The position numbers and the translations under genes are program-made. The notes beneath the pieces are model-generated. The model saw nothing but the letters and a program-made list of their open reading frames with translations, was not told where the DNA came from and did no database searches. Shown here piece by piece: positions 961 to 49,996 of a stretch of DNA of 64,000 bases. Position 1 is the stretch's first letter, and the number at the start of each line of letters is the position of its first letter. The DNA comes from Gracilariopsis chorda (Eukaryota > Rhodophyta > Florideophyceae > Gracilariales > Gracilariaceae): contig NBIV01000121.1 of NCBI GenBank assembly GCA_003194525.1, positions 184,637 to 248,636 of the forward strand. The letters run 5' to 3'.

Positions 961-965
961 CTTGC
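961..965. repeat. Target-site duplication of Gypsy-1, left copy (cttgc)
   Basis: The 5 bases cttgc precede the left LTR and recur directly after the right LTR at 6121-6125. A 5-bp duplication is usual for Ty3/gypsy integrases. Confidence 0.8.
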
Positions 966-1177: not shown

Positions 1178-1192
1178 GTTATAACTTTTATG

Positions 1193-2842: not shown

Positions 2843-2869
2843 GGCTGGGAAAGTCGCCCCCGGCCAGCT

Positions 2870-4170: not shown

Positions 4171-4175
4171 CAAAG

Positions 4176-5863: not shown

Positions 5864-5908
5864 CTCTTCTTTCCTGAAGAAACAAACTAACATGGTTTCT
5901 GAGGCCAC

Positions 5909-6120
5909 TGTGGCGCGCACGAACTCGCTGTTAGTTCCTGTCAGTTATCTTGAGTGCCATGGAGCCAGTGCCCCCAACTTCTAGTTAAAATGTTGGAAAT
6001 CTACATTACTTTATTAAGGCCTGGGGGACGAGAGGAGAGAGAAGAGCCTCTCATCGATCCATGGCCTTTTGGTGCTGCTTGTCCGCGAACGAATCGCGCG
6101 ATGTCCCGCGAATCCGCATA
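5909..6120 (+). repeat. Gypsy-1 right LTR
   Basis: Direct repeat of 966-1177, followed by the duplicated cttgc at 6121-6125. It starts TGTGGCGCGC. A canonical CA end would fall at 6118, but the duplication fits better with an end at 6120. Confidence 0.85.
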
Positions 6121-6125
6121 CTTGC
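6121..6125. repeat. Target-site duplication of Gypsy-1, right copy (cttgc)
   Basis: Matches 961-965. Removing one copy and the element restores the Copia-A frame (minus strand) from VFYHKLTQ into APTSRISRTV. Confidence 0.8.
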
Positions 6126-25363: not shown

Positions 25364-25366
25364 TAA
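25364..25366. repeat. TAA target duplication, left copy
   Basis: TAA directly precedes GGGCCGTTC and matches TAA at 41545-41547. Three-base TWA duplications are the rule for PIF/Harbinger transposons. Confidence 0.75.
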
Positions 25367-25390
25367 GGGCCGTTCTATGAGTTTCTAAAT
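25367..25390 (+). repeat. Left terminal inverted repeat of the Harbinger-type element
   Basis: 24 bp starting GGGCCGTTCTAT, perfect inverse of the right terminus. It is followed by GAAAC repeated three times (25391-25405), a possible subterminal transposase-binding array. Confidence 0.85.
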
Positions 25391-25464
25391 GAAACGAAAC
25401 GAAACTGGAAAACCATTCTCGAGCAATCAGGCATTTACACATTTCCTCCACACGCTTCAAGATG

Positions 25465-25509
25465 TCGTTTAATGTAGGGAGCACGATTGTTGTTTCCTAC
25501 ATTAAACGA
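25465..25509. repeat. 14-bp perfect hairpin near the left terminus
   Basis: TCGTTTAATGTAGG at 25465-25478 and its exact reverse complement at 25496-25509, with a 17-nt loop. It lies in the left subterminal region, 75 bp inside the terminal repeat. Confidence 0.85.
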
Positions 25510-25668
25510 AATCTGAACGTTGAAAGAATACACTTCACAGTTGCATTCAGTCAAAAACAAGCTTCCACCCGACAAGTCCAAATGACAAACCTAGAATTGC
25601 ATGGTTTCAATAACTATGATCTCTTTCTTGCCGCACTTTGTGAATGAAGAACAACCGCTAGTGCGAAC

Positions 25669-26954
25669 ATGACAGACTCTGATCCGCAGCCATCAAGTAC
25701 GCATGAAGTTGGACCCCGTACTCAGCCACCTCCAAAAACGCTCCATGAAGCGTGTAATCAACTTGATGCTTACACATTTAGCAACTCACAATTTAGGAAA
25801 GCGTTGAAGGTGCTCAAAGTTAGCGGAGCCATTAACGCGAAGATAGATACAAAGCGCAAAATTGTATCCATGAAAATGGTACAGCGGAAAATAAGCGCAT
25901 CGCATCTTGTTCAGGTAATGCAAAACGTAATACCCAGCTCTAACAATGTTTCTACTCACATCCAAGACTTACCACATACGACAGTTCGTATAAATAAATC
26001 TGAATGCAGGAGAGAGCAGATTGATTTCATTCAAGGAGGTGCACCGCAACTGATCGGAGATGAAGTTGTCGTAGGACAAACATTACAATCTTTTTACAAC
26101 AACTCGTCTCCCAACGAAATTTGAAACCCGGCTTTTGAAGCCGCAGAGTATTGTAGACTGCTTCATGTCTTTGCGGACCCACGTATGACTGCAGCAAGAA
26201 CCAAACTAATGGAATGCTTAACCAGAGAGGAGCTTGATCGGCAGAATGAAGATCCATGGAGTGAACAAATCGCGCCGTTATTTAATGACATTTCCTTCAA
26301 ACCTGCTGCAAACACAAATCTTTCTGGAGGTATCACATCTGACGATATATATATGCTCAATCCTGCTGAGCGTCCTTATATTCGTGAAGGTGGTATGTTA
26401 AAGAGAAAGTTTGCAGAAATCAAAGCGTATACGGTCAGTGCTTAGCAAAATTTGAGGCGTCGGGGCAAGGAGATCCAGAAGCGTTCGCTACGTTTGCCGA
26501 CGGCAAAGCATATAATATGTACGGGTACTGCTTTCTGCAGCTACACCCTATTTTGAAACCATTTGTTACCCATGCATTGGAGAGTGATGCTCAACGGGAG
26601 GAAGGGGTGGGGTCTGGGGTCAACCCATACGGGTTTGGAGGAAATGAGTTTTTTCGTAACCAACAGAAGAGACTAAAGCGAGATGTGCATGATATTAATT
26701 TTGTTGGCGTAGATGGGCTGTTATCGGCCTTAAACCAGCAGCGAAATGTTCCAGCTGAATTAGAACAACTGGAAAAGCGACGGCTACAGTTTGAAGTCAT
26801 GGACGCACAAGCTCGCTCTACTACGTCTGCGCTGGAAGCGATAGTGCGTGTGAAGGATATGTTGGAGCAAGGCGTTAGTGCGGAAGAAAAGACTTTTTTT
26901 GAAGGAGTTCTAGACAAACTCAAAGCGTCTCTTGAGGCAGACAGAGCTGCATAG
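25669..26954 (+). pseudogene. Accessory ORF of the Harbinger-type element (putative DNA-binding/regulatory protein)
   Basis: A gene of about 427 residues starting MTDSDPQPSST at 25669. It is broken by a TGA at 26122 and a 1-bp loss near 26443 that splits YTVSA from KFEASGQGDPEAFATFADG. The core (MLNPAERPYIREGGMLKRKF, then the SGQGDPEAF segment) is globular. The C-terminus (26700-26952) is a long charged helix, likely coiled coil, ending KLKASLEADRAA. I know no named domain. By position it may stand in for the Myb/SANT-like second protein that Harbinger transposases need for nuclear import and DNA binding. That is inference. Only 47 bp separate its stop from the next ATG. Confidence 0.6.
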
Positions 26955-27001
26955 TAGCATAACCTCTGCAGGAAGCGGCGAATTCTATGTGATTCAAAGT
27001 A

Positions 27002-30000
27002 ATGGGCACGGCTTGTTCAAAATGCTCCCTGCAAATATCCGAAGTCCATTATATTATGGAAGAAGCAGTACGGTTGGCTACCGATTTCATCGAAGAGCGC
27101 AAGTGGAAAATGCAAATGGCGAGAAGGATTGCAAAGATGGTTGTACAGTACCACAATCAGCGGAGACGTCGCCATGCTAAAGCTCAAGTAGAAGAATTGC
27201 AACGAATTCGAAAACTTGCAACTTCTACGGCAAAGGATGTCTCGAAGTTTTGGAGGCAAATTGGGGAGATTGCTGATTACAGAGCCACTTTAAAGACTAA
27301 AGCCCAGCAGGACAAGGAAAGGCGATCTAAACTCAAGGACCTTCTTGAGAAAACAGAAGCGCTCTCATCAGAGCTTGCATCTACGCTTCGAGTCCCTCCT
27401 TCAGCTAATCATCATAACGACGCGTGCAATGTGGTAAAGCATGTATCCTTTGGTGGCGGAAGCGTTGAGAGCCATGCTTGGGATAGGGCAGAAGGTGCTC
27501 TTCTCCCAGAAGGTAGTCCTGATGAGAATAGTTTACGAGAACAGTCTACAACCGTTATCCGCGTCACAGGCTATGTTCCGAGTCCTGGCAACAGCAAGTA
27601 AGAGGATTGTGACTCTGAGTTTTCGAGTCCTGCCAGTAACTCTGCCGAAGGGCACACTGATGGCTTCGATGATGAAACCACTATGGCCATTGCAGAATCA
27701 GAAGAAGAAAAAGATGCAAAAGAGTTGCGTACATTAGACACTCAGGCTGATTTGCCACTAGAGGACTTACTTCGTTCTCAGGGTATTGATCCGCAGAAGT
27801 ATTTTTCGGAAAAGAACTCAAACACAGCGTTGGAGAAAGACGTCGAAGATTCAAACGTGAGTGAGCCTACATCCTGGGATGAAGTTGTTGATGATGAAGA
27901 GACAATAAGAGCTGCGGAGGCTAGAGACGTGCCGGATGTACACGAGGGTCAAAGGCTGGCCGACGAGGCAGCAGCCAGCATTGAAGAGATTTTGAGAGCC
28001 CAAGGAATAGACCCTGATGTGTATAGAGCAGATCAGACAGTATATTTGAAACCAAAGAGTGGATCAAAAGTTTCCACTCTGTCTACGGATGCGAACAATG
28101 ATCTGAAATCCACACTTATCTCTCCAGTAGAGAATGGGGTTAAGGAAAATGATGCAGGAAGGGCAATGGGTCAGGAAAGGTGTAACATGTCATTTGTAAA
28201 TATTGAACACGTAATCAAAGACCGTAACACGAATGCTGCCACGGTAGAGAAGTACTCTTCAATAAATGGACAGTCTACAAAGGTTAACAAAGAGGATCGT
28301 ACTCATCCTTCCAGAGAATCTCCATGTTTGTCCGAACCACAAACTAATGGCAACTCTAATCATTCAGCATCCGGTCAGGGAAAAGGGCAGGTCGAGGAAT
28401 CCTCAAGATCTGTCGAGAACGGTAAAGCACTTTCTGTTCATGTCGTTCGAAAGCATTATTCGAGTACTCATTTACCAAGTAAGCTATTTTGTGGAAACCT
28501 TCGAGATTATCAAAGAAGAGATTTGGAATGGCTACTGACGCTTTGGCGCAAAAACCTCAATGGAGTACTAGCAGATGACATGGGACTTGGGAAGACCATT
28601 CAGACTATTGCTTTCTTGGCATGGTTGGCTGTTGAGAAAGTGGTTTGGGGTCCACACCTCATTGTTGTTCCGACCTCAGTTATGGTGAACTTGCAAGTAA
28701 AATTCAAGAAATGGCTGCCAGGATTCATGGTTTTGACGTATTTTGGCTTTGTCAAGGAACGCAAAGAGAAACGCCGCGGTCAGACAAGGCCTGATATGTT
28801 TCATGTGTGTATCACATCCTACACCCTGGCAGTGAAAGATTCCATTATATTAAGTCGGAAGAAGTGGTACTACTTGATCTTGGATGAGGCCCATAACATC
28901 AAGAACTTTGAATCTCAGAGGTGGAAAACACTACTAATCTTCTCATCGAGACATCGTCTGTTGCTAACAGGTACTCCTCTGCAAAATTCTATTGTAGAGC
29001 TTTGGTCTTTAATGCATTTCCTGATGCCCAAACTGTTCGAAAGCCATTCATGGTTCAAGGATACTCTTTGGAAGGCTCTTATTGAAGTCGCAGAAGCAGA
29101 AAAAGACCTGAACCATGGTAAGTCTGAAACAGTCTGCACTCTACACGGCATTCTTCGGTCTTTCTTGCTTCGTCGGTTGAAGAAAGATGTTGAGAAAGGG
29201 TTACCGCCCAAGTCAGAACACATAATATTATGTCGTCTGAGCAAAAGGCAACGGCAGCTTTATGAAGATTTCATGGCTCGAGGTGACACACGAGAAACAT
29301 TGAAGTCAAAAGATATGCTTGGAGTTATGAATGTTCTGCTTCAGCTACGAAACGTCTGTAACCACCCTGACCTTTTCGAAGGCCGTCCAATTTTATCGCC
29401 ATTTTCTAGTAATGCCATTTTCTACCCCGTGCCTACGATAGTGGCACGAGCGATTGAAGATGATCCAAGACATTATGTAACACTGCATCTTATGGGGTTA
29501 AATTTTCAGTACGGGGAGCACAACTCGCCTGGCAAAGGGTATGAAGACGAACTGGAACGTATATCGTCCGTAAAGGTAATGTGAGAGGGAATGGATAGTC
29601 CTAAGTGTTTAGGATCTCTGCATGAGTCCCAAGAGAGCTTGGACTTCCGAACAGGTAGTCAACGTGCCCAAAATCGAAGAACAGCATCTCGCTATGCTAC
29701 TCTGCACCACCAAGGTTTTGGTACATGCACTAAGGATCAGACAACGGGCGCTTCTAGGACAGGATTTACGTGGTATTTATTCGATGACGGTTTTGTCCTT
29801 GTTTCATGTGCTTCAGAAAGATTCCCCTTCAGATTTTTTGTTGGATACCCCTCGAACTTCATTGGTACAACAAAGACTGACGAAAGACAAAGAGTGGTGG
29901 AACGGTTAAACTCTGATTCAAGAATTCTCTGCATGATACCAAACACTCGTGCAGGAGGCGTTGGGATTAACTTAACTGGTGCCAACACGGTGATTTTCTA

Positions 30001-33000
30001 TGACTCTGATTACAACCCTGCGATTGATAATCAAGCCCAAGACCATGTGCATCGTATTGGGCAAACGAAGCCTGTACATGTGTACCGATTTGATTTCGGA
30101 ACAAACTGTAGAGGAAAACATTGTGAAGAGGGCAGTGGGGAAGCGTTCACTGGAGCAGCAAATAATTTCACATGCTGGTTTCACCACGGATGGAATTCAG
30201 AGATATCGAGATTCCTCCAAAATGGTAAAGTCTCCACAGAATACCGGAGAAAGCCAGACCTCACTCCCTGCTGTTCATAATGAACGACTTGGAGCTGCCA
30301 AGAACGGAATAGGAAGCAGCTCAATGACTCCGAAATCTATACTACTGCAGGACCCACCAGAAAACGGTAGAAGCCAGCCAGTTTCTTCAGAATCATTGCG
30401 GAGTGCCGAGAGTACTGGTGTCCAATGCTCCTACGGGGAGTTTACAGGATTCAGAGCAGCAAATAAGAGCGAAATGGAGAATGGTATGGCAAAAGCAAGC
30501 AGTGAGGCAGTGATTCAGGAGGTTGGGGATGGCTCTGATGAGTACCAAGAACTAACCTCCAAGCTTCTAGCCAGGGAAGATGAGCGTGAAAAACTAGCCC
30601 TCAAATCTGCCGAGAAAGAAAAACATGACCTAGAAGCTGATTTTTATGACACCCCGGAAGATCATCATATTGATGCGACGAGGGCCGACAACCAAAGCAG
30701 TCGAACTAATGAGTTTGCGAAGGTCGTGAACTCTCTAACCCGTATTCAGAGATACGCACTTCGTGTTCTTGAACGTATGAGTGGGGTAGAATCTCTTCCT
30801 GAGCCCTCGCATGGCAGCAGCATGGGTGCAAATTGGGCTACTCCTGGATTGGATTCTGTACTTGGAGAGTGCTCTCGTCCAGATGATGCAAATGCTTCTG
30901 AAATCGAGAGCACTGGAGAAGATGATACGGAGACTCTGCTGTATGAAGTGGATATTACTGATGATGGACATCCAAGCTATTTAAAAGCGCTGACGGACGC
31001 CGACATTAATATTTACCTGCCGCTACGTGACGGTGGTCCGGAAGAGCTTAAATTTTCGTCGGTATTACATGGCACCGCAGCGGCAGGTTTAGAATGTACG
31101 GAAGATGCAGCTTTCTTCCTGCACGCTTACAACAGAATGAGCCGGACAATGCATGCAACGAGAAGGCAGAAAGAGAAGGGTCTTGAGAACCTGCGGAAGA
31201 GGATGGCTGAAATTGAGAAAAGACGCAAGTTGGAAGCAGCATGTTCTGCTCCTAACCAAACGAGCAGCCCCGCTGCATCTTCTGTGAATTCCTCCAGGGA
31301 TGAGCAGCTCAAGGGATCAGATGCCGCGGATCGTGCAAGGACAACAAAAGGAAAACTCGAGCTACTATCCATCTCAATTCAATCAGCTTCGAAGAAGAGC
31401 AGAGCGGGTTCTTCTTTTAGGTCGAAGAACGCAATGAGTGTAGCTAGTGCAGGTTCAGCATCTGATCCACATCATTCGAGTATGTGTCTATTCAAGAACA
31501 AGCCAAAGAAGAACACGAAACGGTTTACGATTCCTGGAATTAAGTCTTCAATTGGGAACTATGGAAGCAGCATATCTAATGAACCTAACGGAGTAAACGA
31601 TGGCTGGACCAAGGAGGAGGAGGAGGCCTTGATCGCTGCTGCCTCTGCGTGTAACAACAATATGTTTCTCGTGGCTGACCTTCTGTCGTCGGATCCACTC
31701 GTACGAATGGGAGTTTGTCGATTCAGGCCAGTCCGGCATTGTGTAGATAGGCTTCTCAATGTTCTTGGAAAGGATATCAAGAGCGGTCCACCTGTTCCGA
31801 GGGCAATTATAAGCGATCTGGACATTGTGCAGAAGCATCATTCTGCGTTACAACGTGCCGTCAGTGCTGTACGTACAAAGACTGTGTCAAATAGCGGACA
31901 GACGGGACTTGAGTTGCATTCATCCTACCAGAACTTAATGTCTGAAGCGATATCAAAGATGAAGGGGATGGTGAGGCCAGATCTTTTTCCACCCCTTACC
32001 GCAGTTCTTAAGTGCTTCAATATTCCTGAGCACCATAAGCCCGGAATGAAAACGACCGAAACAGGGCTTCAGGCTGTTTACAAGCCTCGACGGCCTTTCA
32101 TGTTTCCTCCTAGAGATGATATCCGACTCTTCGCGCGTACGGGTGGGCTTTCAACCGCTGTTGGTGCTTCTTATCAAGATTAACCAGCAATAAAGAGTGG
32201 AGACCCAAAATCGCTTCCAAAAGGGGCCAGGCAGAGGAGCTCGCAAAATGAATCTTGGAGCATCGTCGCGTCGTAACCGTCAGATTTGCAATGCTGCCAG
32301 CTCTCGAGGGTCTACACCGAAGATGAAGACAGTTGATTTGAAAACGAGGAATCAGTCGACTTCCCATCGTCTCCAAGAGGCTGGAAATGTTCTGCCGCCT
32401 CATAGCATATCTCGCAGGGAATCGAACCCTTCAGCTACAAAGTCTTCTGGTTACAAACATGTGAACCTGGGAACTAATGGACAAAGCGATTCAGTGCCAA
32501 AAAAGGAAGATGGCCAAAGCCAGATAGGATCCGTCAACCACGCTGTTGTGATGAATCGTGTAGCTACCTCAGCTGTGGAGAATGGAGCGAAGTATTCACG
32601 TTCTACAGCTGATCTTCCCAAGTCCTGGGGAATGGCTCCCTCTAACGCGGGGAGCACATTGAAGGCAACTTCTGGAAAGATTGGATCTCAAGGCGTCTTA
32701 CAGTCAATGGTCACCACCTCCATGCTCCAGAATGGAGATGCACGGGTTTATTCTGTGGGGACTCCCGCGCTCTTGACTGGTTCACAATTCCGTATAGGAC
32801 AAGTATTACATTACGGAGGAGGTGACCACAATTTTAAAGCTCTCTATTCTTCGTATGTGTCGTCATCACTTCAACCTGGGAACGGCAGCGGTAATCCACT
32901 GGCGCGTTGTCGGGGAACTGCCAGAACAGCGGTGCCCCATTAGGTCCCAGTGCCAGCACAGGCAGGACTAATCAGGGACGAGATGGTTCATCAAAAGGAA

Positions 33001-33296
33001 ACAATAGCATGACAGTGAATCGTGATACCGTGTGCATGGCACGAGAGGCATTAGAGCTAGGAATTCTGCAACGATCAGAGGTGCGTCAAGAGGCGCATCT
33101 AGATATCCATCAAGAGGGGCGTCGAGGGGTGCATCAAGAGGAGTAGCTCGAGTTACCATTTCAAACCCGGCTAGCAGGGGTATATATCGGAAGAGCTGTT
33201 GGTTTTGGACGTGGCAATGTGGCATCCCGGTCAGTTATAGGTGCAGAACTCGTTGGAACTCGAAGAGGAGGTTTATTAGAACGTCTTGTCATATAA
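27002..33296 (+). pseudogene. SWR1/EP400/PIE1-type chromatin remodeller (HSA-SNF2-SANT), disrupted
   Basis: The ATG at 27002 lies just before an HSA domain (27050-27400; ARRIAKMVVQYHNQRRRRH). HSA recruits actin-related proteins in these complexes. A SWR1-type DEET/PLEDLL linker follows (27650-27760), with a second copy near 27880. The ATPase N-lobe (28480-29250) has Walker A in DDMGLGKTIQT, DEAH in LILDEAHNIKN and LLLTGTPLQN. The C-lobe (29640-30110) has [20 protein letters not shown] and QDHVHRIGQ, where the family has QDR.HRIGQ. A SANT domain (WTKEEEEALIAAASA, 31600-31760) and an RGAS-repeat tail close it. Such ATPases exchange H2A for H2A.Z. Breaks: TAA 27599, TGA 29582, shifts at 29580-29910, an extra T near 30085, TAA 32181 and later shifts. 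Some could be short introns or sequencing indels. Confidence 0.85.
33070..33150 (+). repeat. RGAS-encoding minisatellite at the 3' end of the SWR1-like gene
   Basis: Tandem imperfect units of agaggYgcRtc encode RGASRGASRYPSRGASRGAS near 33080-33146. RG-rich tails often bind nucleic acid. The run sits just before the convergent transposase stop. Confidence 0.6.
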
Positions 33297-34641
33297 AACG
33301 TCGTCTTTGCAGGTATCCTAGCCTATGAAGCTTTTCTGCAAGTTCATTGCGCCGCGACGACGTTTCTCTTCGCCTGTTCCTCGACCATCTGTTTTCTCCT
33401 TCTGTGTGACAGCCATCCTGAAAGGGTATGATAGGCGTACCAGTCACACGATTATCATGATGATGCGGTACGAGTTCAAACAACGAGCTGTCTCCATTAT
33501 CGATAATGAAGTTGTGGAGTTTGCATGTGACCATAATGATAAGTGTAGAAGTTGGCAACGAGTAACGAAGAGCTGACCAAAAGATGCCAAATCGGCATAC
33601 AAGCATCCCGAACGCCTGCTCACAACAAAATCTGGATAAAGAATGATACGCGTTGAAATAATCTTCTTTTGTACTTAGATTTCGTCCTGGATACGGCGTT
33701 AGAATTCTGTGCTCGTTCGAATACGCCTCATCAGCAACAACAGCTGCCCACGATGGTAGCTCTGGACCACTTAACAAATCGTACAATAAAGTTGCCTTAA
33801 AAGCTGTAGAATCATGCGTTCCACCCGCATGTCGCGCCGAAACGAAGCAGAATTTGTAGTCTGCTTGAACTGCTGCCTGCAAAAAGATTGCAAAAAATCC
33901 TTTGCGATTGTAGTACTTACGAGGATCTGACGCTTCTCGAAGCTTAGGCCGAATAATTTCGATCGCGATAACATCCAAGGCTGCCACTATACCATGAAGT
34001 GGACTTCGGCGACGTTTCTCGAACATATACGCGCTTGCAAAACACTCTTCAAAAGAGATCGGAAATCGAATATGTGGAAGCACTTCATTCAGAACGTGAA
34101 AAGTTTCATGAAACACATGATATACGGTAGACTCAGCAACACCATATGCCCACCCGAGGTCTAGATAGCTTGCACGTGCTAAGGGCCGTTAAGTTAAACA
34201 TAGCATAACAGGTATGGATACAGAAGCAGCAATATAGCTCCGTTTTCTTTGCATTCTCAAGAGTTTGACTGAGAGAAGTTTGGAAAGGATAATGAACTGC
34301 TCTTTTGAGAGATGGTATATTCGCCGAGACAATTGACTAGAAATAGTAGCCATATGAGCGTCAAAGTTGAATTGTGGTCTCGGACCAACAGGGATTTTGA
34401 AATGCATATGTGGATATAGGTCCGCTGCAATGGTGAGAAGAATAATACAAATAACGGTAAGCACGCTTTCGTTTTGTATAGTTGATGAGTCTACGAACGA
34501 ACTCATTGGTTTGGAAGGATCTTTCTTGGTTGATAGAGCGCGATGTCTTGGTCTGTGACGTTGCTTTCGAAATCGCGGATATTGGCGTTGCGTTCGAAAT
34601 CGCGGATATTGGCGTTGCGTTACCCGTTCTAACTTTGGCAT
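33289..34641 (-). pseudogene. PIF/Harbinger DDE transposase with one internal stop
   Basis: The ATG at 34641 starts a frame of about 450 codons to the TGA at 33289. It is interrupted only by a TAA at 34189-34191 in the conserved segment LRPLARASYLDLGWAYGVAE. An N-terminal basic region contains a duplicated QYPRF motif. The HTH-like STVYHVFHETFH box follows. The catalytic domain matches the DDE superfamily endonuclease of HARBI1-like proteins: first Asp in VAALDVIAIEI, second in AVVADEAYSNEHRILTPY, Glu in RFCCEQAFGMLVCRF. All three acidic residues are present. It excises and inserts the element in the nucleus. Its ATG is 134 bp inside the right terminal repeat. Its 3' end overlaps the end of the remodeller gene by 8 bp. 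Confidence 0.88.
34566..34619. repeat. 27-bp tandem duplication in the transposase N-terminus
   Basis: Two copies of a 27-bp unit starting ttcgaaatcgcgg, in frame, give the doubled QYPRF motif in the transposase. Confidence 0.8.
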
Positions 34642-34774
34642 GGTGCAAGGGTGGCCGTAAGCGTACTGAATTGTCTCTGGGGGGGTATGGGGCTGGCGTT
34701 AAGAAAAAACTCATAGCATGAAGCCTTGGCTGAAAGCTTGAAGTTGACTGCGTAACACGTTTTCATCCGTTAAA

Positions 34775-34797
34775 ATTTAGAAACTCATAGAACGGCC
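34775..34797 (-). repeat. Right terminal inverted repeat (23 of 24 bp) of the Harbinger-type element
   Basis: Reverse complement of 25368-25390. The outermost base lies at 41544, on the other side of Gypsy-4, whose 5-bp duplication cggcc is taken from this repeat. Confidence 0.85.
34793..34797. repeat. Gypsy-4 target duplication, left copy (cggcc)
   Basis: cggcc at 34793-34797 and again at 41539-41543 directly after the right LTR. It shows that Gypsy-4 inserted one base from the end of the Harbinger terminal repeat. Confidence 0.85.
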
Positions 34798-35861
34798 TGT
34801 CGGTCGCAAATGTTGCGGAATGTGCCAGACATTGCTGGAACACACGTGTAGAATGTTCCAGTAGTGTCTAGCACATTTCACGCTTTGTTGGCCCGGCAAA
34901 GACTACAGTATTTTAGTGATGCTGGCGCAAATTGTCGCTCTATTATTGGTTATTGTGCAGCTCCAGAGGTCTCTAGAAGCCAATGGAGTAACCTAGACGC
35001 ACACATGAGTAACTAGCAAGTAGAAATGCGTATTTGGCTCGTTTGTAGTGCCTCTAAACACTATAAAAAGAGGTTCTGAGCTTCGGACTTCGGTCTGAAC
35101 TCACCTCAACAATAGACCAACATCTAAGCCCCACCCCGTATCAACCTTCAGCCACTTCAACTATCATCAACAACCAGTGAGGCGTTCGCCGCTGGATAAA
35201 GGGCTTCTAATGAAGCGTGTGCCGCTAGTTGTCCAATAGGGTGGGGAAGTACCGTCGCTAAGACCGGTTGAAGCGCCTTAGGCATGGACGGGAGACGGGT
35301 AGTGTGTACCGAAGGTGTTTTTCTGTCGTCTGTGAGCCCCACCGGAGCTTTGCTCGGATAACGGTGTCAGTCGAAAGACCTGGTGATTTCCGGACGGAAG
35401 TACTTGACGGGAAGCTATCCGCAGGCGACGTGCCGTGCAACCTTTCCTGCAAAGGGCCAGTTTGGGTATAGAGTGAAAGCATATCCCGCTGTTAGTAGCT
35501 CTCCTCGGGAAGCCCTGTAAGGATTGTATGCGCCTGCTTCTGGTTAGTGCAGAGGTAGGTAGGCTGCAGAATACACTTCACATCCGGAGTGTCTGACCGG
35601 AAGCCGAGGGTCTGACCCTTAGTGATCCTTGACATAATTCTTGGGTTGCGCGCCGTTTCAACAAGAAGTTAAGAAGTTTTATCTGGGGATTGAGCCTTTT
35701 GCTCTCCCTAGTGTTGTTTTATTTCATCGAGTGGGTTTAGTTCTTTTTATACCACTGTTTTCAACTTGTTTTGGGGCTTTTAGCTACGAAGAGCACCCTT
35801 TTGGCTTTTACTATTACAAACTTTTGGCCCCCTGCGTCACCGTTCCGTGATGGCGCCTACA
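34798..35861 (+). repeat. Gypsy-4 5' LTR
   Basis: 1064 bp, TGTCGGTCGC to GGCGCCTACA, matching 40477-41538 with only scattered differences, so the insertion is recent. It contains a TATA box (35062-35069). The gag ATG (35850) lies inside its last 12 bp. Confidence 0.92.
35062..35069 (+). promoter_or_regulatory. TATA box in the Gypsy-4 5' LTR
   Basis: TATAAAAA within cactataaaaagagg, repeated in the 3' LTR at 40741-40748. Its place mid-LTR fits the U3 promoter of an LTR element. Confidence 0.65.
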
Positions 35862-36812
35862 TGGTACTCTCGAGGAGGGAGCTCTTCTGACTCTAACGCT
35901 GCCTTTACTTCTTATGACGGTTCTTCTATTGACGTCGTAAAGTTCTTCTTTTACTTTGAGAATGTTGCAATGAGAGGAAAGACTGACGAGGACATGGCAC
36001 TTGATTTGCTTGGTTTCCTTGAGAACAAAGCCTTTGAGTTCTAATATGATTCTTATGCCGTTAATGGTTCACTTTCGGAAGAAGCAAAGGACTACCGCTC
36101 CGTTCAGCAAGCTTTCATCGATCGTTTTGGAAAAGGCGAGGAGCCTGAGGAAGATATACGCCTTACAATTTCTGCTAAATTGGATTATGCAGACTTGGTT
36201 GGTTCCTTGACCTATATGGACAACCTCTTCTTAAAGGAAGGATTCAACGCTAAGGCTAAGTTTGGTCTTTTGAAGAAAGCTGTAATGGAATACGCTGATC
36301 TAGCCCAGTTCGTTGTTTTCCGTGGCGCTGATGATTATGATGAGTTGAAGGTTCAAGTGAAAGCCTTCGATGCTGCCCGGAAAGCAATGGGGAACTACGT
36401 TTCATTAAGTACCCCATCTAAGCGTATTGTCCAAAACCACAGGTTTTCTGAAGAAACTATCTCTCATGCTTTGGAGTCTAAGGTCGACAAACTCTCTGAG
36501 CAGTTTGCTCAGCTGTCATTAATGGTTAAGAAGACACAGACGGAGCGTCGAGACTACGAAAAGGTTTGTTCATACTGCAAAAAGCCCGGACATTATGCTT
36601 CACAATGTGACTCTAATCCGCACCGAGATACGCAATGCCCGCGTTGTGGGAAAATTGGACACTCAGAGATCACTTGTTGGCGAAGAATCCGACCCGAAGA
36701 GACCCGCAAAGCATGGGATACCAATGAGGAATCTAAAGAGTCAGCATCTAATCTTCAGAAAGGATCCGACCCGTATGAATTGTCACCGAAAACGCCGGGA
36801 ATGCTGATGTAG
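35850..36812 (+). pseudogene. Gypsy-4 Gag
   Basis: The ATG at 35850 lies in the LTR end. The primer-binding site is translated as part of MAPTWYSRGG. The capsid part (FFYFENVAMRGKTDEDMALD) continues through a single TAA at 36042 into YDSYAVNGSLSEEAKDYRSV and KFGLLKKAVMEYADL. Two CCHC knuckles close the protein: CSYCKKPGHYASQC and CPRCGKIGHSEITC (36570-36670). About 320 residues. Pol is open in the -1 frame at the gag end (36810), with about 30 nt of overlap. No canonical slip site was found. Confidence 0.88.
35862..35880 (+). other. Primer-binding site of Gypsy-4
   Basis: TGGTACTCTCGAGGAGG begins at the base after the 5' LTR. The TGG start fits a tRNA CCA end. The primer is unassigned and differs from that of Gypsy-2/6. 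Confidence 0.6.
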
Positions 36813-39121
36813 TCGCCACAACCAAGAGAAGTGCTGACGGTGAAGCGTTGCCCAAACAGCGCCGTTCAGACGGTGGTGCACCCATCCCGCTATTGCTCAA
36901 TCCAACAAGATACGAAGAGAGAGTTCGGAGACCGAAGGTTCATGAACAGAAAGTCAAGAAGCCGAAACAGAGGAAGTCGAAGAAACAGAGTCTTCAAGAC
37001 CATGCAAGCAAATATAACGTTCTCACTGAGCTCGCGAATGCCTCTTCCGGACTAACCTTTGGACAACTTATCAGAGGAGACGCAGATGATGCGAAGAAAG
37101 AGATTCGTAAGCTCATCGGTCGCAAAAGCAATGTTCGACGCCCTTTTGTTGGGCCAGTCGGTAAGCAGCCTAGACGTCTTAAGGCGGTCCCCGTTATAAT
37201 ACATGGGACTGAGACTGAAGCTTTGCTCGACTCTGGAGCTGTTCCAAACCTTATGTCAACCAAGCTGTGTGACAGGCTAGCACTGGAACCCAAGCATACG
37301 ACGAAGAAGATAACTGTTGCCAATGGACAGAGCGCCGTGTGCAGAGGAATACTATACGATATCCCTATATCCTTCAGGGGCGTCTCCGTTCCATTAGACT
37401 TTCTTGTTATTGATGGTCCGCCATTCGACATCATTGTGGGTTGTCCAACACTTGAATCGTTACAAGCCTTCCTTGAACTCGGAAATCAGCACGTGAAGAT
37501 GAATATTGATGGAAAACGAGTAACACTTGGCTTTGACTATGCTCGCGTCGAGATTTCAGACGAAGAGGGTTTCCACACGGATAGCGACGACTTCACTTCA
37601 GATTCTGACGCCGCTATTGACTCTGATACTGCTTCTGAAGATGACCAACAACTCGTGGTTGCTCTAACAGAAAAGAACCATAGCGAGACTCCCGAAATGA
37701 TCCCGCAATTGGACATCACTACCGATGAGCAGCACGAGAAGTTACTCTTTTCAAAACTCTCGCACATTTCAGAGGATGAAAGAGACGACTTGGTTTCTTG
37801 TCTGAAGGACTCGAATGTAATCGCTTGGTCATTGAAAGACTTACGCCCAGCCGATGTGCCTGTTTCTCACTCTTTCGAGTTGACAGTTGACAAACCAATC
37901 TACTTCAGAGCCAGGAGGATGTCGCCGAAGCACAACCAGTTCGTACGCAAGGAGATTGATCTTCTTCTCGAAGCTGGTATCATTACACCTTCAGCCTCTG
38001 CTTGGTCGTTTCCAATTGTCATTGCCTCGAAGAAAGATGGAAGCGCAAGGTTTTGTGTCGATTACAGAGAGCCGAACAGAGTCATGAAAGCTGACCGCTG
38101 GCCTTTGCCACGCATGGAAGAGATCTTTGACGAACTTGGAGGTTGCTGTGTCTTCACTACGCTCGACCTGTTCTCTGGATACTGGCAAGTCAAGATGTCT
38201 GAGGATTGCAAAGAGATGACGACCTTTGTGTGCAGATACGGAACTTTCATGTTCGAAGTCATGCCATTTGGTCTCATGAATGCCCCTTCCACCTTTCAAC
38301 GGATGATGGATCATTTGCTAAGAGGACTTCCATTCGTTCGGGTTTACATTGATGACGTTGTCATATTCTCAAGAAGCCTCAGAGAGCACGTGATTCACTT
38401 GAAGGATGTGATTGGTCGGATTGCGAAGCATGGATTGAAGCTCAAACTGTCCAAATGTTTCTTTGCAATATCGGAGGTGTCTCTTCTAGGCCATGTCATC
38501 AACGGAGATGGAATTCACGTGGACCAGGAGAAGATTGCTAAGATCCAGGATGCCCCAATTCCTGCCACCACTACGGAACTACGATCTTTTCTCGGACTAG
38601 CCGGATACTATCGAAGGTTCATCAGAAACTTTGCTGAGACCTCCGCCGTGCTCCACAGTGCTACCTTGGGGAATAAGAAGCTGAGTTGGACCGGAGAGAT
38701 GCTAGAAGCTTTCCACGGTCTGAAGAAAAAGATGACTGAGCCTCCGGTACTTTCATTTCTAAACTTCGAGCAGCCTTTCATTGTGGAAACGGACGCCTCT
38801 AGTGTTTCACTCGGCGCAGTTCTCTCTCAGAAAAAGGAAGATGGGAAGATACATCCTCTGCAGTTTGCCAGTCGTACTATGACCGCTGCGGAAAAGAACT
38901 ACTCGGCATGTGAAAGAGAAGCATTGGCAGTTATCTTTGCTCTCAAGAAGTTCAGATTGTATATACTCTCGTCTGTTCCATTCAAGGTAATCACGGACCA
39001 TATGGCTTTACGATATGCATTTCAGAAGCGCGATGTACATGGACGCTTAGCTCGCTGGCTAGAATTTCTGGCCGAGTATGACTTTGAAATAGTGTATCGC
39101 GCAGGCAAGGAGAATGGCTGA
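36813..39121 (+). pseudogene. Gypsy-4 Pol: protease, reverse transcriptase, RNase H
   Basis: Open from the gag overlap to a TGA at 39119. Protease: EALLDSGAVPNLMS near 37220 and FDIIVGCPTLESLQ. RT: SARFCVDYREPNRV, TTLDLFSGYWQVKM, PFGLMNAPSTFQRM and the intact catalytic box VRVYIDDVVIFSRS near 38340. RNase H: FIVETDASSVSLGAVLS, CEREALAVIFALKKF, TDHMALRYAF. The TGA falls in ENG-stop-ADYLSR, the conserved RNase H end, and the same frame continues into integrase. This is the best-preserved RT in the window. Confidence 0.92.
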
Positions 39122-40432
39122 GCAGATTATCTGTCAAGGATAGTTCACGGAGACGAGGTCGAGCCGTTAGAAGATGAAGGCGACCTTGCTTGTATGGCTG
39201 TTGAGCCTGACGACTTCTCCGGTCTTGAACCATACTACGCAAACATTGCGCGCTTCTTGTGTGGTCTGCCTACAGATGAGACTGATGCACGTATCCGCCA
39301 AGCAATCCGACGAAATGCGAAGAAATTCCTGGTCTGGGAAGGAAAATTGTTCAGAAGGATGCCAAACGCACTGCGATTTGTTCCTGTTATTGGTTGGCGA
39401 CAGATCATTATCAAGTCATTTCATGATGAGATTGGACACTGGGATTTGAAGACTACAAGGAAGTTCATCACTGAGAGATACTGGTGGCCCACTATGCATG
39501 AAGATATCGGCAACTACGTCAAGAGTTGTGACGAATGCCAGAGACTCGCACCACCACCAAGGTATTACAGCAACCTTCGGACTCCCATTTCCTCTCTCTT
39601 TGACGTCTTCTCGATTGATTTTGCAGGTCCTCTTCCGACCACCGAATCCGGAAACCGTTTCATTCTGTTTTGTGTTGAGCATTTGACTGGTTGGCCACTT
39701 GCCGTAGCGACAAAATGGTCTACGTCACAAGAGGTCATAGACTTCGTGAGAAAAGAGATCATTGCCGTGTTTGGTTTCCATCGTATCGTGGTGTCGGACA
39801 ATGCTACATGCTTCACTTCTAAGTCGCTCGTCTCATTCATGGAGGACCATGGTATCAAATGGAAAACGGTCTTGGCGTACGCCCCCATGTCCAATGGCCG
39901 AGCTGAAAGGATGGTTGGTACTCTGAAAAGAGCAATAGGAAAGAAACCTCTGGATAATCGTTCAAGTTGGGACGAACACCTTCCTTCGTTTCTGTACGGA
40001 TACCGACGCAGACATCTTGCCAGTGGAATCTCTCCGTTCGAGTTGATTTACGGCGTGAAACCACGTATGACCTCCGATGAAGGTGGTGTCGTGGCACGAG
40101 TTGGGGACTCCTCCGACCAGTTCCGCTCAGTGGAGCTGCTCGCATCAAGAAATCATAGAGCTAACCGTTCTGCTCTGAGGACTTTGAAGGAAGTCGATGC
40201 AGTCTCCATTACGAAGTTTGAAGTCGGTGATCTGGTCCTTGTGGCTCGTGGAAAGGCCCTGAACACTACCGTGAAATGGCCTGCTTTTTCCTCTAAGTAC
40301 TTTAGTCCATGTCGTGTGGTGAGGGCTCACCATCCAAGGTACACGTTGGTTTCTCCACACAACCGGTACACTCGCCATAGAATATACGCCAGTCGTTTGA
40401 AGAAGTATATTGCGCGCCCGATGGAAGGTTAG
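39122..40432 (+). CDS. Gypsy-4 Pol: integrase
   Basis: In frame with the upstream Pol. Zinc finger: SFHDEIGHWDLKTTRKF and CDECQR (39420-39545). Core: first Asp in VFSIDFAGPLP, second in RIVVSDNATCFTSK, Glu in SNGRAERMVGTLKR, all present. The SH3-like C-terminus (FEVGDLVLVARGKAL) ends TRHRIYASRLKKYIARPMEG at 40432. There is no chromodomain after it. The stop is 44 bp before the 3' LTR. As part of a polyprotein it needs readthrough of the TGA at 39119. As written it has no start of its own. Confidence 0.88.
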   Translation, partial: ADYLSRIVHGDEVEPLEDEGDLACMAVEPDDFSGLEPYYANIARFLCGLPTDETDARIRQAIRRNAKKFLVWEGKLFRRMPNALRFVPVIGWRQIIIKSFHDEIGHWDLKTTRKFITERYWWPTMHEDIGNYVKSCDECQRLAPPPRYYSNLRTPISSLFDVFSIDFAGPLPTTESGNRFILFCVEHLTGWPLAVATKWSTSQEVIDFVRKEIIAVFGFHRIVVSDNATCFTSKSLVSFMEDHGIKWKTVLAYAPMSNGRAERMVGTLKRAIGKKPLDNRSSWDEHLPSFLYGYRRRHLASGISPFELIYGVKPRMTSDEGGVVARVGDSSDQFRSVELLASRNHRANRSALRTLKEVDAVSITKFEVGDLVLVARGKALNTTVKWPAFSSKYFSPCRVVRAHHPRYTLVSPHNRYTRHRIYASRLKKYIARPMEG

Positions 40433-40476
40433 GTTTTCAGGTTGCCGCGGCGTGGCAACCCTTGAGGTTGGGGTTG

Positions 40477-41538
40477 TGTCAGTCGCGAATGTTGCGGAAT
40501 GTGCCAGACATTGGTGGAACACACGTGTAGAATGTTCCAGTAGTGTCTAGCACATTGCACGCTTTGTTGGCCCAGCAAAGACTACAGTATTTTAGTGATG
40601 CTGGCGCAAATTGTCGCTTTATTATTGGTTACTGTGCAGCTCCACAGGTCTCTAGAAGCCAATGGAGTAACCTAGACGCACACATGAGTAACTAGCAAGT
40701 AGAAATGCGTATTTGGCTCGTTTTTAGTGCCTCTAAACACTATAAAAAGAGGTTTTGAGCTTCGGACTTCGGTCTGAACTCACCTCAACAATCGAACAAC
40801 ATCTAAGCCCCACCCCCTATCAACCCCCAGCCACTTCAACTATCATCAACAACCAGTGAGGCGTTCGCCGCTGGATAAAGGGCTTCTAGTGAGGCGTGTG
40901 CCGCTAGTTGTCCAATAGGGTGGGGAAGTACCGTCGCTAAGACCGGTTGAAGCGCCTTAGGCGTGGACGGGAGACGGGTAGTGTGTACCAAAGGTGTTTC
41001 TGTAGTCTGTGAGCCCCACCGGAGCTTTGCTCGGATAAAGGTGTCGGTCGAAAGACCTGGTGATTTCCGGACGGAAGTACTTGACGGGAAGCTATCCGCA
41101 GGCGACGTGCCGTGCAACCTTTCCTGCAAAGGGCCAGCTTGGGTATAGATTGAAAGCATATCCCGCTGTTAGCAGCTCTCCTCGGGAAGCCCTGTAAGGA
41201 TTGTACGCGCCTGCTTCTGGTTAGTGCAGAGGTAGGTAGGCTGCAGAATACACTTCACATCCGGAGTGTCTCACCGGAAGCAGAGGGTCTGACCCTTAGT
41301 GATCCTTGGCATAAGTTTTGGGTTCCGCGCCGTTTCAACAAGAAGTTAAGAAGTTTTATCTGGGGATTGAGCCTCTTGCTCTCCCTAGTGTTGTTTTATT
41401 TCATCGAGTGGGTTTAGTTCTTTTGATCCCACTGTTTTCAAATTGTTTTGGGGCTTTTAGCTACGAAGAGCACCCTTTTGGCTTTTATTATTACACCTTT
41501 TTGGCCCCCTGCGTCACCGTCCCGTGATGGCGCCCACA
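40477..41538 (+). repeat. Gypsy-4 3' LTR
   Basis: 1062 bp, TGTCAGTCGC to GGCGCCCACA, followed by cggcc (41539-41543), then C and TAA, which complete the Harbinger terminus and its target duplication. Confidence 0.92.
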
Positions 41539-41544
41539 CGGCCC

Positions 41545-41547
41545 TAA
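41545..41547. repeat. TAA target duplication of the Harbinger-type element, right copy
   Basis: TAA follows the last base (C, 41544) of the reconstructed right terminus and matches 25364-25366. Confidence 0.7.
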
Positions 41548-46465: not shown

Positions 46466-49400
46466 TTACCCAACTTGGACATTTACCAGCGTGGCTGGAG
46501 CTGCAGTCCCCGTTTGACGGTGGTATCGCAGGACCTGCGACCGCGGGAGGTGTTCAATTGGCTCCCACGTATCCCCACTGGTGTCGTACCCGTACCAGCG
46601 GACGCGGTATTGTAGAATACCATCCTGGTCCCAGGTGTGTCCGACAAGTCGGTCTACTACGAACTCTCGTTCGTAGACCTGCCGGCCATGCCGGGTGGTG
46701 GTTGTAATCCCTGGCGAGGGTTGCCCGCGGTGCGGTATAATGTCCCTTAGCAGGGTGTTCAGCGATAACTCCGACGTTGCCGTGCGCTGTCCTAGTGGCC
46801 GCTGCTCATACGGGAAAATATCCCTCAAGAGGGTGTGTGGTGCCACGGTTTTCACCGGCAAGTCGTTCCCCAGAGTGGTGTCGTTTTTCCCGTCTTCACG
46901 GTAGGCCGGGCGAACCGCCAGTCGGCGGGGGACTTGGGCTCCGCCTTCGCGGTTGAGCTCACGAACCGCGAGTTTGCGGGAAGATGACCGCTCCTGCGGG
47001 ATCGGCATTTCCACAATCCCCTGGGGGGTCCCGTGCGACACGGTGATTGGGTGGCAAACCGCCTCCCTGCCAGGCGCACGAGCGCTCTGCACCATACGTT
47101 CCGGCGACGCCGTGGTGTCCCCGGCTACTGACGGGTTGCCTGGGGCTAACTCCGGTACACCGGTATTTTGGTCAAAATTCCCCTTTGGGGGGTTCTGGGC
47201 AGGTGCCGATGACACCCTTTTCAGGGGAATTGCCGCTGAGCGCAGTGCACCATCTCTGTGAGGAGAAGCAGCGTCCGGTACGACCGGTTTCGAGCGTGCG
47301 ATGGCGCGCGTTATTCCCGAATTCCTCGGTTCTTCGCGGCAGCGATGCGGGGGTTGGCGCAAATTATTCCCCGTAGCGGGGGCTTTGATTCCGTCAACGA
47401 CGGGAGGCGTTTCCGGTGCTTGCGAGCCAGGGCTTAAAGCTTCGACTGCAGCTTGGCCGCCTTTTTCCCCAAGAGGGGTGTGGGTATTCCCCTGTGAGGC
47501 CGGCGTATCTGGGCGCCCCTTCTCCGCAGGGCGCGGGTCTGATCGACCTGATTGAACCGCTTCCCCGGGGACTTCCGCCAACGGCGGCTTCGAGGCATCG
47601 GGCGATTGCCTTTCCGCTGCTGCGGTATTGGAGTGAGGCTTCTCGTTTTCCAGTGACAAACGGTGTATTTGCCGCTTTTGCGGGGCCTTCGCGTCTGGTT
47701 CCTGTTGCACAGCACTGCCCGGGAACGGGGGATTAGTGTCACGTGACATAATCCGTGCTCCACGGTCAGTGTTCCGTATGTTACGGTGTGTTTCCCGTTG
47801 CGACGGTGATATCGTTCCTCTAAAACGAGTGTTCTCCTCCCCCTCCTTTGACGGAGCGGCGGGATAAGGGATAACATTCCCCGCCTGGCGGGTATAGATG
47901 CGCGCCAGTGGGGCAGACGTGGTAGGGGCGGGCGCTGAGGGGCCCGAATTACCCGGCTGAGCCGGTGAGTCCGACAGAGTCGGTAGGTCTGAGAGTCCCC
48001 GGCTGGGGTGTTGTAGTACCGTAGATCTAGTACTCCCGGATTGTTCCGGTGTAGCGGAGTCCGTAGAAACGGGGTTGCCTGGATCCAGGACTACCTCTGA
48101 CGAGGGAGGAGGGGCGAGGACAACACGATCACGGGAAATCCGTTCGTGCGTGTCCCCCATCTCTACCACGACAGTGTCGGTGTTAACCGAGATCACCTTG
48201 AAGGGTCCATCCGCCACAGGCGAGAGTTTGTGACGCTTCTCCCGTTCCGGGTTGTAGTATTCCTTCCTGATGAAGACGTAGTTATTTGCCCGAATCGGGG
48301 ACGGTTTTCCTCGCACGCGAGCGTCAAAATCCCGCTTGTAAGCGGCTTGGGCCCGTGCCATAGACTTCCGCGCAGCGGGGACCAGCTTGGAAAGCCATTG
48401 CTTCCATTGCTGCCGGTAGATACCCACAGATGGGAAATTGTCCAAGGTAGCTTGGGGTTCCAGCGCCACAGGCGGGGGTGTTCTAGATATAACTAACTCG
48501 AATGGCGAAACTCCGGTAGTCCGGTGTACCTGCGTATTGTACGCGTAGGTTACCGCATCAGCGTAGAGATCCCAATTCGTTGGGTGGTCAGCGACGTAGG
48601 AACGTAACGCCGCGAGTAACGTCCGGTTAAACCGTTCAACTTGCCCATTACACTGGGGGTGGTAGGTAGTCGTGAACAAGTTCTTGACATCCAGGATGCG
48701 ACAAACATCCTGGAAGAACTTGCTCACGAACTGCTTCCCGTTGTCAGAGAGCACCTCTACAGGGGGACCGTAGACAAAAATCCAGTGCGTCGCCAGAGCC
48801 TGGGCCACCGTGAGAGCGGTTATCCTCCGAAGAGGGACAGTCCGTACCAGCTTAGAAAAGCGGTCGGTAATGACAAGTAGAAACTTGTTTCCACGTTTCG
48901 TGGTGAGTAATGGTCCGAGAATATCGATCGCGATAAACTCGAGCGGCGCCCTTGCGGGGAATAGTTTCATCTTCTTCGCATTTTTGCGGAGTTTGACGCG
49001 ATTCTTCGCGCATTCGCTACAAAACCGCACAGTTGCGTAGCAATCCACCGCCATTGCGGGCCAATAGAAATCCCTTCGCAGGGTTAGGTAGAGTTTCCTC
49101 CCACCTGGGTGACCTCCAATGGGGGCGTAGTGTGATAGATGTAACACCCGCGATTGCAGGGAATGTGGTACCACAATCTGTGGGCGGGCTTCGACCTTTC
49201 TTACGAGGTAGCCTTTGGCGTTTACCCCGAAAGGGAGATCTTCACCACCGTTGATACAGGCACGAATTCTCGTACAGAATGGGTCGCCGAATTGTTCTCG
49301 GATCATTTCTTCCGGTGATACCGGTACAAAGTTTCCCGGTAACGGGTTCTCAGATTTATCTCGCGATGCGAGTAGTTCGTCAAAATCAGCATCCTCCTCC

Positions 49401-49996
49401 CAGGTTTCTGGCCTAGCCTCGACGGCATATTCCGGATCATCCGGGTCTATAGCCATGAAGCATGGGACTTCATCATCCTCTGTTGGGAGTGCTTCCCCAC
49501 TTGTGGGTAACCGCGATAAAGCGTCGGCCTGGGTGTTCTGCGCACCCTTTTTATAAATGACTTGAAAGTCATATTCCGCGAGGCGGAGTCTCCAGCGCAT
49601 GAGGCGTCCCGACGGGTCGGAGATATTCATCAACCACCTCAATGAGGAATGATCCGTGTACACGGTGAAGTGAATTCCCATAAGGTAGGGGCGCAGAGTG
49701 GTCATCGCCCATACGACGGCGAGGCACTCTTTCTCCGATACGGAGTAGTTCCGCTCATGAACATTGAGCGAACGTGACCAATAACCAATTGGATGTCGTT
49801 CCCCCTCAGGGGTGGTTTGAAAAAGAGCACACCCGACTTGGTAGTCGCTCGAGTCTGTATCTACGGAGTATGGCAACCCAAGTTTTGGGAGATGTAGGAT
49901 TGGTGCTGATGTGACAGCCTCCTTTAAGGAGTTAAAAGCTTCCGATTGCTCGGGCGTAAATGTTCCCAGTTTTGGGGGGTTCCCCTTTCGCAACAA
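46466..49996 (-). CDS. Gypsy-5 Pol: RNase H, integrase, linker and chromodomain
   Basis: An uninterrupted 1176-residue frame. RNase H at about 1-160 (SVDTDSSDYQVGCALF, TDHSSLRWLM, QADALSRL). Integrase at about 270-560: finger HLSHYAPIGGHPGG and CSECAKN, Asp in FIAIDILGPLL, Asp in EVLSDNGKQFVSK, Glu in CNGQVERFNRTLL, all intact. The SH3-like part (NNYVFIRKEYYNPERE) is followed by about 450 disordered Pro/Ser-rich residues. A chromodomain near 1113-1165 (EREFVVDRLVGHTW, LQYRVRWYGYDTSGDTWEP) has an intact aromatic pattern. The start ATG is only the first Met after an upstream stop at 50042. In the full protein it follows RT. Confidence 0.9.
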   Translation of the reverse strand: MLRKGNPPKLGTFTPEQSEAFNSLKEAVTSAPILHLPKLGLPYSVDTDSSDYQVGCALFQTTPEGERHPIGYWSRSLNVHERNYSVSEKECLAVVWAMTTLRPYLMGIHFTVYTDHSSLRWLMNISDPSGRLMRWRLRLAEYDFQVIYKKGAQNTQADALSRLPTSGEALPTEDDEVPCFMAIDPDDPEYAVEARPETWEEDADFDELLASRDKSENPLPGNFVPVSPEEMIREQFGDPFCTRIRACINGGEDLPFGVNAKGYLVRKVEARPQIVVPHSLQSRVLHLSHYAPIGGHPGGRKLYLTLRRDFYWPAMAVDCYATVRFCSECAKNRVKLRKNAKKMKLFPARAPLEFIAIDILGPLLTTKRGNKFLLVITDRFSKLVRTVPLRRITALTVAQALATHWIFVYGPPVEVLSDNGKQFVSKFFQDVCRILDVKNLFTTTYHPQCNGQVERFNRTLLAALRSYVADHPTNWDLYADAVTYAYNTQVHRTTGVSPFELVISRTPPPVALEPQATLDNFPSVGIYRQQWKQWLSKLVPAARKSMARAQAAYKRDFDARVRGKPSPIRANNYVFIRKEYYNPEREKRHKLSPVADGPFKVISVNTDTVVVEMGDTHERISRDRVVLAPPPSSEVVLDPGNPVSTDSATPEQSGSTRSTVLQHPSRGLSDLPTLSDSPAQPGNSGPSAPAPTTSAPLARIYTRQAGNVIPYPAAPSKEGEENTRFRGTISPSQRETHRNIRNTDRGARIMSRDTNPPFPGSAVQQEPDAKAPQKRQIHRLSLENEKPHSNTAAAERQSPDASKPPLAEVPGEAVQSGRSDPRPAEKGRPDTPASQGNTHTPLGEKGGQAAVEALSPGSQAPETPPVVDGIKAPATGNNLRQPPHRCREEPRNSGITRAIARSKPVVPDAASPHRDGALRSAAIPLKRVSSAPAQNPPKGNFDQNTGVPELAPGNPSVAGDTTASPERMVQSARAPGREAVCHPITVSHGTPQGIVEMPIPQERSSSRKLAVRELNREGGAQVPRRLAVRPAYREDGKNDTTLGNDLPVKTVAPHTLLRDIFPYEQRPLGQRTATSELSLNTLLRDIIPHRGQPSPGITTTTRHGRQVYEREFVVDRLVGHTWDQDGILQYRVRWYGYDTSGDTWEPIEHLPRSQVLRYHRQTGTAAPATLVNVQVG

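Follow-up and report, generated by a model that had tools for sequence, protein, structure and literature searches.

What does a DNA transposon gain, if anything, from carrying the gene of a chromatin remodeller? The question is raised by a stretch of 64,000 nucleotides of the red alga Gracilariopsis chorda (contig NBIV01000121.1 of assembly GCA_003194525.1, positions 184,637 to 248,636 of the forward strand; hereafter the window), in which positions 25364-41547 are occupied by one PIF/Harbinger-class element, identified by its termini, target-site duplication, gene content and Pfam matches. From left to right it holds an accessory open reading frame (ORF; + strand), a gene with HSA, SNF2 and Helicase_C domains and a weak Myb match (+ strand), and a DDE_Tnp_4 transposase gene (- strand). 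The original prediction, made from the letters of the window, took the middle gene for a whole remodeller of the SWR1/EP400 class that could help the element reach or leave silent chromatin. As read from the sequence, the element is very probably a two-gene member of the PHIS superfamily, making TNA duplications, that captured 6.6 kb of the host SWR1/SRCAP gene once, after which the cargo drifted as a passenger pseudogene. The host origin of the cargo, its common capture edges, its repeated transposition and its lack of coding constraint are demonstrated directly by the comparisons given below.

The element is delimited by a 24-bp terminal inverted repeat with TAA on both outer sides (25364-25366 and 41545-41547). 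The 5' repeat, GGGCCGTTCTATGAGTTTCTAAAT, lies at 25367-25390 on the + strand and recurs, little changed, at both termini of further copies. The 3' repeat has 23 of its 24 bases at 34775-34797 on the - strand, and its last base, a C, stands at 41544, beyond a Gypsy retrotransposon (34798-41538) nested in the repeat one base before its end. With this C the inverse of the 5' terminus is perfect, as had been predicted, and the two lie 9.4 kb apart, measured from the first repeat to its inverse. The long terminal repeats of the Gypsy insert (34798 to about 35861, and 40477-41538) measure 1.06 kb and are 95.9% alike, and its insertion made a CGGCC duplication at 34793-34797 and 41539-41543. A chance origin of the termini is excluded because the ends recur genome-wide, the cargo is found at 12 other places and 14 of 16 insertions have perfect 3-bp duplications.

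The captured segment (27048-33270, + strand) corresponds to nt 503-7126 of the host ORF, that is, to 6,624 bp of a 7,602-nt frame that is uninterrupted in the host, and it matches the host gene with 96.1% and 94.5% identity in two blocks. Pfam recognises on its + strand an HSA domain without its first residues (27050-27220, 7.2e-10), the SNF2-rel_dom of ATPase lobe 1 (28508-29374, 1.1e-79) and a remnant of the Helicase_C domain of lobe 2, the start of which is deleted (29861-30061, 1.7e-12). The Myb/SANT-like stretch at 31605-31790 on the same strand (0.011) is below the Pfam cut-off, and the match at the corresponding position of the host protein falls short of it too. The remodeller is not whole: the first 167 host codons are gone, and with them about the first 10 residues of HSA, as are about 159 codons at the other end of the host frame. 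It had rightly been described as broken in the window, where a 390-bp deletion at about 29863-29866 has removed the start of Helicase_C and where stops and frameshifts are also present.

The donor is on contig C223 (contigs and the copies on them are named alike here), in an open frame of 2,534 codons with HSA, SNF2 and Helicase_C domains. The best solved structures for its protein are SRCAP, then SWR1, then EP400, and it is collinear with orthologues of 2,530 residues, aligned from their first residue, with an identity of 80% over 2,540 columns to P0002 and of 57% over 2,494 to P0004; the closest orthologue with an organism name is that of Agarophyton chilense. No element end was found around the C223 gene in the 9.9 kb examined. 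A tree of the captured region unites C223 with ten of the cargo copies (100/99) and places the nearest orthologue, P0002, outside; the capture therefore postdates the split from P0002. The cargo is thus SWR1/SRCAP-class and copied from the host's own gene. Both the predicted class and the predicted separate, intact host orthologue are borne out; of the proposal that the element had "captured, or has long carried" the gene, the capture stands, and long carriage at depth does not, as the cargo joins the host gene with the nearest orthologue outside.

Another SWR1-like sequence, a broken fragment, was seen on C219 (3833-5762 of the stretch examined). Its best stretch has 66% identity to the host protein and 71% to the Agarophyton chilense protein, and it groups near P0003 and P0004 with weak tree support (81-88); no ends or genes of the element families described here were found within the 9.9 kb examined around it.

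When the 91.3-Mb assembly (1,081 contigs) was searched with either end of the element, with its SNF2 part and with each of its own two genes, the SWR1 cargo was located in the same family at 12 further places (C24, C46, C352, C8, C294, C146, C340, C139, C49, C195, C155 and C302), each of which was examined at least in part. Other copies have the termini and duplications in common with the window copy, in line with the original prediction. Nine of the 12 have both ends, C49 and C195 are seen in part, and for C302 a right-end match is 30 kb away among the matches listed. C24, C46, C352 and C294 are nearly uninterrupted, at about 9.8 kb. The accessory-ORF query is matched with an identity of 79% or more at 15 places; SWR1 sequence is present at 13 of them, and at the remaining ones, C21:179884 and C2:1092090, the match is short and partial. 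Short copies of the family exist as well: at several places a left and a right match are paired within about 0.3-0.6 kb, and three such copies were examined.

The edges of the captured piece are shared. On the left, the cargo begins at host nt 503 in 11 of the 13 copies and at 508 in C146, the edge being lost in C155; on the right, it ends at host nt 7126 in nine of the 13, the edge being not covered or lost in C49, C195, C302 and C155. Because the copies share these edges, we infer that all of them descend from one capture. An independent second capture in C155 was considered and rejected, since its left edge follows the common junction and then a similar stretch of the host gene, and is read as the result of a deletion that came later. 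At the right edge of C155 stand about 137 bp that match nothing and are not accounted for.

Counted in the host frame, in-frame stops are present in all 13 copies, at 3-19 per copy. Four of them (716, 890, 1993 and 2335) are common to all copies of the youngest group, C24, C46, C352 and C8, and part of the cargo stops arose while the element was still multiplying. On the five internal branches joining the seven fullest copies, 119 changes are nonsynonymous, 31 synonymous and 9 stop-making, which agrees with the neutral expectation of 0.712/0.237/0.051 (p = 0.23). The changes that separate all seven from C223, by comparison, are 24 synonymous and 17 nonsynonymous, which fits a constrained host branch. 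Differences between copy and host are spread about evenly over the three codon positions in most copies (83/82/79 in C24, 182/185/185 in C146), each such comparison with the host including its constrained branch. Between C24 and seven older copies, the ratio of nonsynonymous to synonymous rates (dN/dS) lies at 0.75-1.11 in the cargo, compared with 0.46-0.78 in the accessory ORF; in the catalytic part of the transposase it is 0.47-0.54 against the three older copies with data. No purifying selection on the cargo was detected by codon positions, internal branches, dN/dS or the HSA subregion. The stops, the neutral branches and a dN/dS of about 1 therefore speak for a transduplication with a passenger, and not for a tool for entering silent chromatin.

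Several observations fit this reading poorly. The copies do not keep a clock: their divergence from the host gene ranges from 3.7% (C24) to 18% (C155) despite the shared capture edges. Between C146 and C24 divergence is higher in the element's own parts (0.13-0.18) than in the cargo (0.10), and C155 shows the reverse, with a cargo more diverged than the element's own parts. Some stops are common to copies that are not sisters (190 and 241 in C340 and C195, 294 in C352 and C294). This unevenness may stem from exchange between copies, from conversion by the host gene, from recurrent mutation or from a higher mutation rate in old, silenced copies; that the copies have undergone exchange or conversion with one another is considered likely. 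A lean towards third positions is seen in the window copy (95/73/112) and in C155 (122/108/149), and dN/dS from host to copy is 0.65-1.03, values that include the constrained host branch. Furthermore, the N-terminal part of the transposase has a dN/dS of 0.73-1.23 against four older copies, the contrast is lost among the young copies, with ratios that scatter widely (cargo 1.04-1.71, accessory ORF 0.58-1.63, catalytic transposase 0.47-1.38 on few changes), and the accessory ORF shows no third-position excess at sites shared by at least two copies (43/41/48). The contrast between element genes and cargo consequently rests on the deeper comparisons. Finally, the youngest branches, C24 and C46, have only 7 synonymous changes in 90 against 0.233 expected (p = 0.0002), a deficit, within an already dead gene and in a subset picked after looking, that is unexplained and may be chance.

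Repeat-induced point mutation (RIP) leaves near-pure transitions. A RIP-like process was rejected for these copies, in which all six classes of change are common. In C24 the commonest class is GC-to-AT (84 of 244 changes), with CpG transitions elevated by a factor of up to about two.

The SWR1 gene is not the only Snf2 donor in this genome. The genome-wide SNF2 search found other repeated, broken SNF2 loci, among them an element of about 8.5 kb on C10 (about 90623-99096) with the ends GGGCCGTTCTAAACAAGCCTG and a TTA duplication. A broken MOT1/BTAF1-like gene separates the two genes of this element, of which the transposase has an open frame of 435 codons; both are distant relatives of their counterparts in the window family, with an identity of 32% for the transposase and 24% for the accessory ORF. 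The best solved matches of its cargo are the "helicase-like protein" entries 7zb5 and 6g7e, and DUF3535 is matched as well, all of which we take to be Mot1. The cargo is matched at eight other places over at least 3 kb with 87-98% identity, and its host source is in an open frame of 1,884 codons on C9 (451650-454198; 91-92% identity). Over the 2.5 kb compared with C9, the differences of the C10 copy fall 62/61/73 on the codon positions, with 131 nonsynonymous, 58 synonymous and 7 stop-making changes, and an older copy on C273 shows 121/100/118 with 9 stop-making changes. This MOT1-like cargo is a dead copy in a second, related Harbinger-class family.

Two further relatives carry no SNF2 match. 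One, on C208 (312-8664 of the stretch examined, about 8.35 kb), has about 5 kb of other sequence in the same spacer, with one ORF resembling leucine-rich repeats and, close to one side, a nested repeat of 0.83 kb that is very common; no host donor of this cargo was found among the 40 scored of 1,844 candidates, a number inflated by the nested repeat. The other, on C23, is 3.8 kb long and has both element genes. The genome is rich in such transposases, with 792 candidates, of which 150 were scored. An enrichment of Snf2 genes among the cargos is not claimed, because these transposases are many and the second case was found through an SNF2 search.

Could the cargo nevertheless be, or recently have been, a working remodeller with which the element gains access to silent chromatin or escapes from it? 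Sequence of the ATPase domains and the greater part of HSA is there, another Snf2 ATPase is the cargo of a second family, and fungal DNA transposons carry TET/JBP, a proposed anti-silencing enzyme (PMC12730594; like the other sources, cited from an excerpt). Nevertheless, HSA is truncated, the start and end of the host frame are missing, every copy has stops, several of them inherited during amplification, the internal branches are neutral, no purifying selection is seen and the MOT1-like cargo has decayed as well, which together make this role very unlikely. A smaller product containing HSA, of about 200-256 amino acids and started at an ATG upstream of the junction, might act as a dominant-negative piece, and in C24, C46 and C8 the reading frame stays open past HSA as far as codon 405. 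These are 3 of the 12 copies that cover the region (C155 is without it), however, and among the seven fullest copies the HSA subregion has evolved neutrally (105 nonsynonymous, 34 synonymous, 8 stop-making; p = 0.92), so such a product is extremely improbable. Neutral coding evolution is no argument against a cargo that acts as nucleic acid, whose transcripts or small RNAs would disturb the host SWR1 gene or put a cost on silencing of the element, a role for which no frame is needed. Captured sequences in maize have been described as reservoirs of small interfering RNAs able to silence their donor genes, in a setting of intragenomic conflict (excerpt of PMC13317346), and Snf2 genes are carried by two families here. 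Capture by DNA transposons is common, though, and requires no function, and this explanation is considered improbable. Just as improbable is its extension to both families, in which Harbinger-class elements of this genome would repeatedly take SWR1, and independently MOT1, on account of an influence that the host copies would have on silencing, the pieces acting as small RNAs, antisense or hostages.

What had been named as the refuting case, that this is the only SWR1-type gene of the host, flanked by two unrelated small elements, is contradicted by C223 and by the same ends recurring together with the cargo elsewhere. The same holds for the converse, in which C223 would derive from the element: its only support is the closeness of the host gene to the youngest copies (3.7% apart), whereas C223 is full length and collinear with its orthologues, and the ratio of 24 synonymous to 17 nonsynonymous changes fits a constrained host branch. 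Either version is almost certainly wrong.

The history that best accommodates the passenger pseudogene would begin with an error of DNA repair after excision of the element, in which sequence was copied from the ectopic SWR1 gene. The piece very probably entered the spacer between the convergent accessory and transposase genes, and the enlarged element of about 9.8 kb then multiplied to at least 13 places while its cargo drifted. The copies were presumably moved by a transposase that the family encodes, acting in cis or in trans, and the cargo may have persisted by not hindering mobility.

The element's own genes are interrupted in the window and open elsewhere. The accessory ORF (25669-26954, + strand) is broken there into 25669-26124, 26185-26445 and 26517-26954, and is open over 436 codons in C24, C46 and C8. 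It has six relatives, one of them from Chondrus crispus, and no Pfam family at the cut-off. It could not be recognised as a Myb/SANT protein: there is no Pfam match, and the fold matches of a relative's model cover only helical stretches and are uninformative. That model is poor (mean pLDDT, predicted local distance difference test, of 54), with no Myb-type chain among the 50 matches listed. The transposase (33289-34641, - strand) is interrupted as 33289-34116 and 34189-34641, matches DDE_Tnp_4 with E-values of 2.4e-23 in the window and 4.1e-23 in C352, and is open over 429 codons in C352.

DDE_Tnp_4, the 3-bp duplications and the termini confirm the PIF/Harbinger class assigned in the original prediction. 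The duplication is perfect in 14 of the 16 insertions with both ends, comprising 11 of 13 in the family of the window (three of the 13 being short copies; the imperfect duplications are those of C155 and of a short copy) and all three single members of related families. PIF/Harbinger elements canonically make TWA duplications. All 14 perfect duplications are TNA (TAA, TTA, TCA or TGA); TWA accounts for 11 of them, and the remaining three, TCA, TCA and TGA, depart from the canonical rule. The NuwaII group of the PHIS superfamily makes TNA duplications, preferentially in the context C|TNA|G (excerpt of PMC4482050), a context found with both C and G at only 6 of the 14 perfect sites here. By its target duplications the element is nearer to NuwaII than to canonical Harbinger. 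It shares with NuwaII the TNA duplications, in part the C|TNA|G context, ends starting with GG, and a DDE transposase with a second ORF, and differs in that its second ORF is not recognisable as Myb/SANT and in being about twice the average length given in the excerpt, due to its cargo (PMC4482050).

Among known systems, the closest precedent would appear to be a histone H3 gene of Pseudocercospora fijiensis and its relatives, which a hAT DNA transposon took up and amplified (PMC6710886). In the excerpt of that report, as here, a housekeeping chromatin gene was captured by a DNA transposon, and the copies are dead and the original is under purifying selection. The hAT case is from fungi, involves a short spliced gene of which mainly the third exon was taken, and shows RIP decay (PMC6710886), whereas the present one is of the Harbinger class, with 6.6 kb of a gene with an uninterrupted frame and a mixed mutation spectrum. 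Another comparison is offered by the Pack-TYPE elements of plants, including Pack-PIF, which are defined as non-autonomous in the excerpt of PMC8903248. Like them, the element has host coding DNA (nt 503-7126) between inverted repeats, duplicated by transposition; unlike them, it still carries the accessory and transposase genes, the latter open in C352, and its captured piece greatly exceeds the minimum of 50 bp or 250 bp required of a Pack-TYPE capture (PMC8903248). The fungal TET/JBP transposons, including the Harbinger-related PHISTA, likewise have a chromatin or DNA-modification gene as their third gene; that gene, found in several element lineages, is proposed to aid escape from silencing, and the cargo here is dead (excerpt of PMC12730594). 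No report of a Snf2 remodeller inside a Harbinger element was found among the matches listed from the openly licensed literature, as judged by titles and the openings of abstracts.

A DNA transposon that still has its own genes can thus capture and multiply a stretch of more than 6 kb from a core chromatin gene, and this outside the plants and fungi to which the precedents considered belong, and a domain-rich "cargo remodeller" can be a mere passenger. An intact donor together with many copies of different age provides a yardstick for mutation in silenced DNA compared with genes. Two Snf2 donors in one genome make interference with donor genes testable, and whether their presence is due to chance is a question of interest.

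Mobile elements are abundant across the window, in which other retroelement matches (reverse transcriptase, integrase and chromodomain) are found at 12736-14559, 46469-49996 and 60386-62581.

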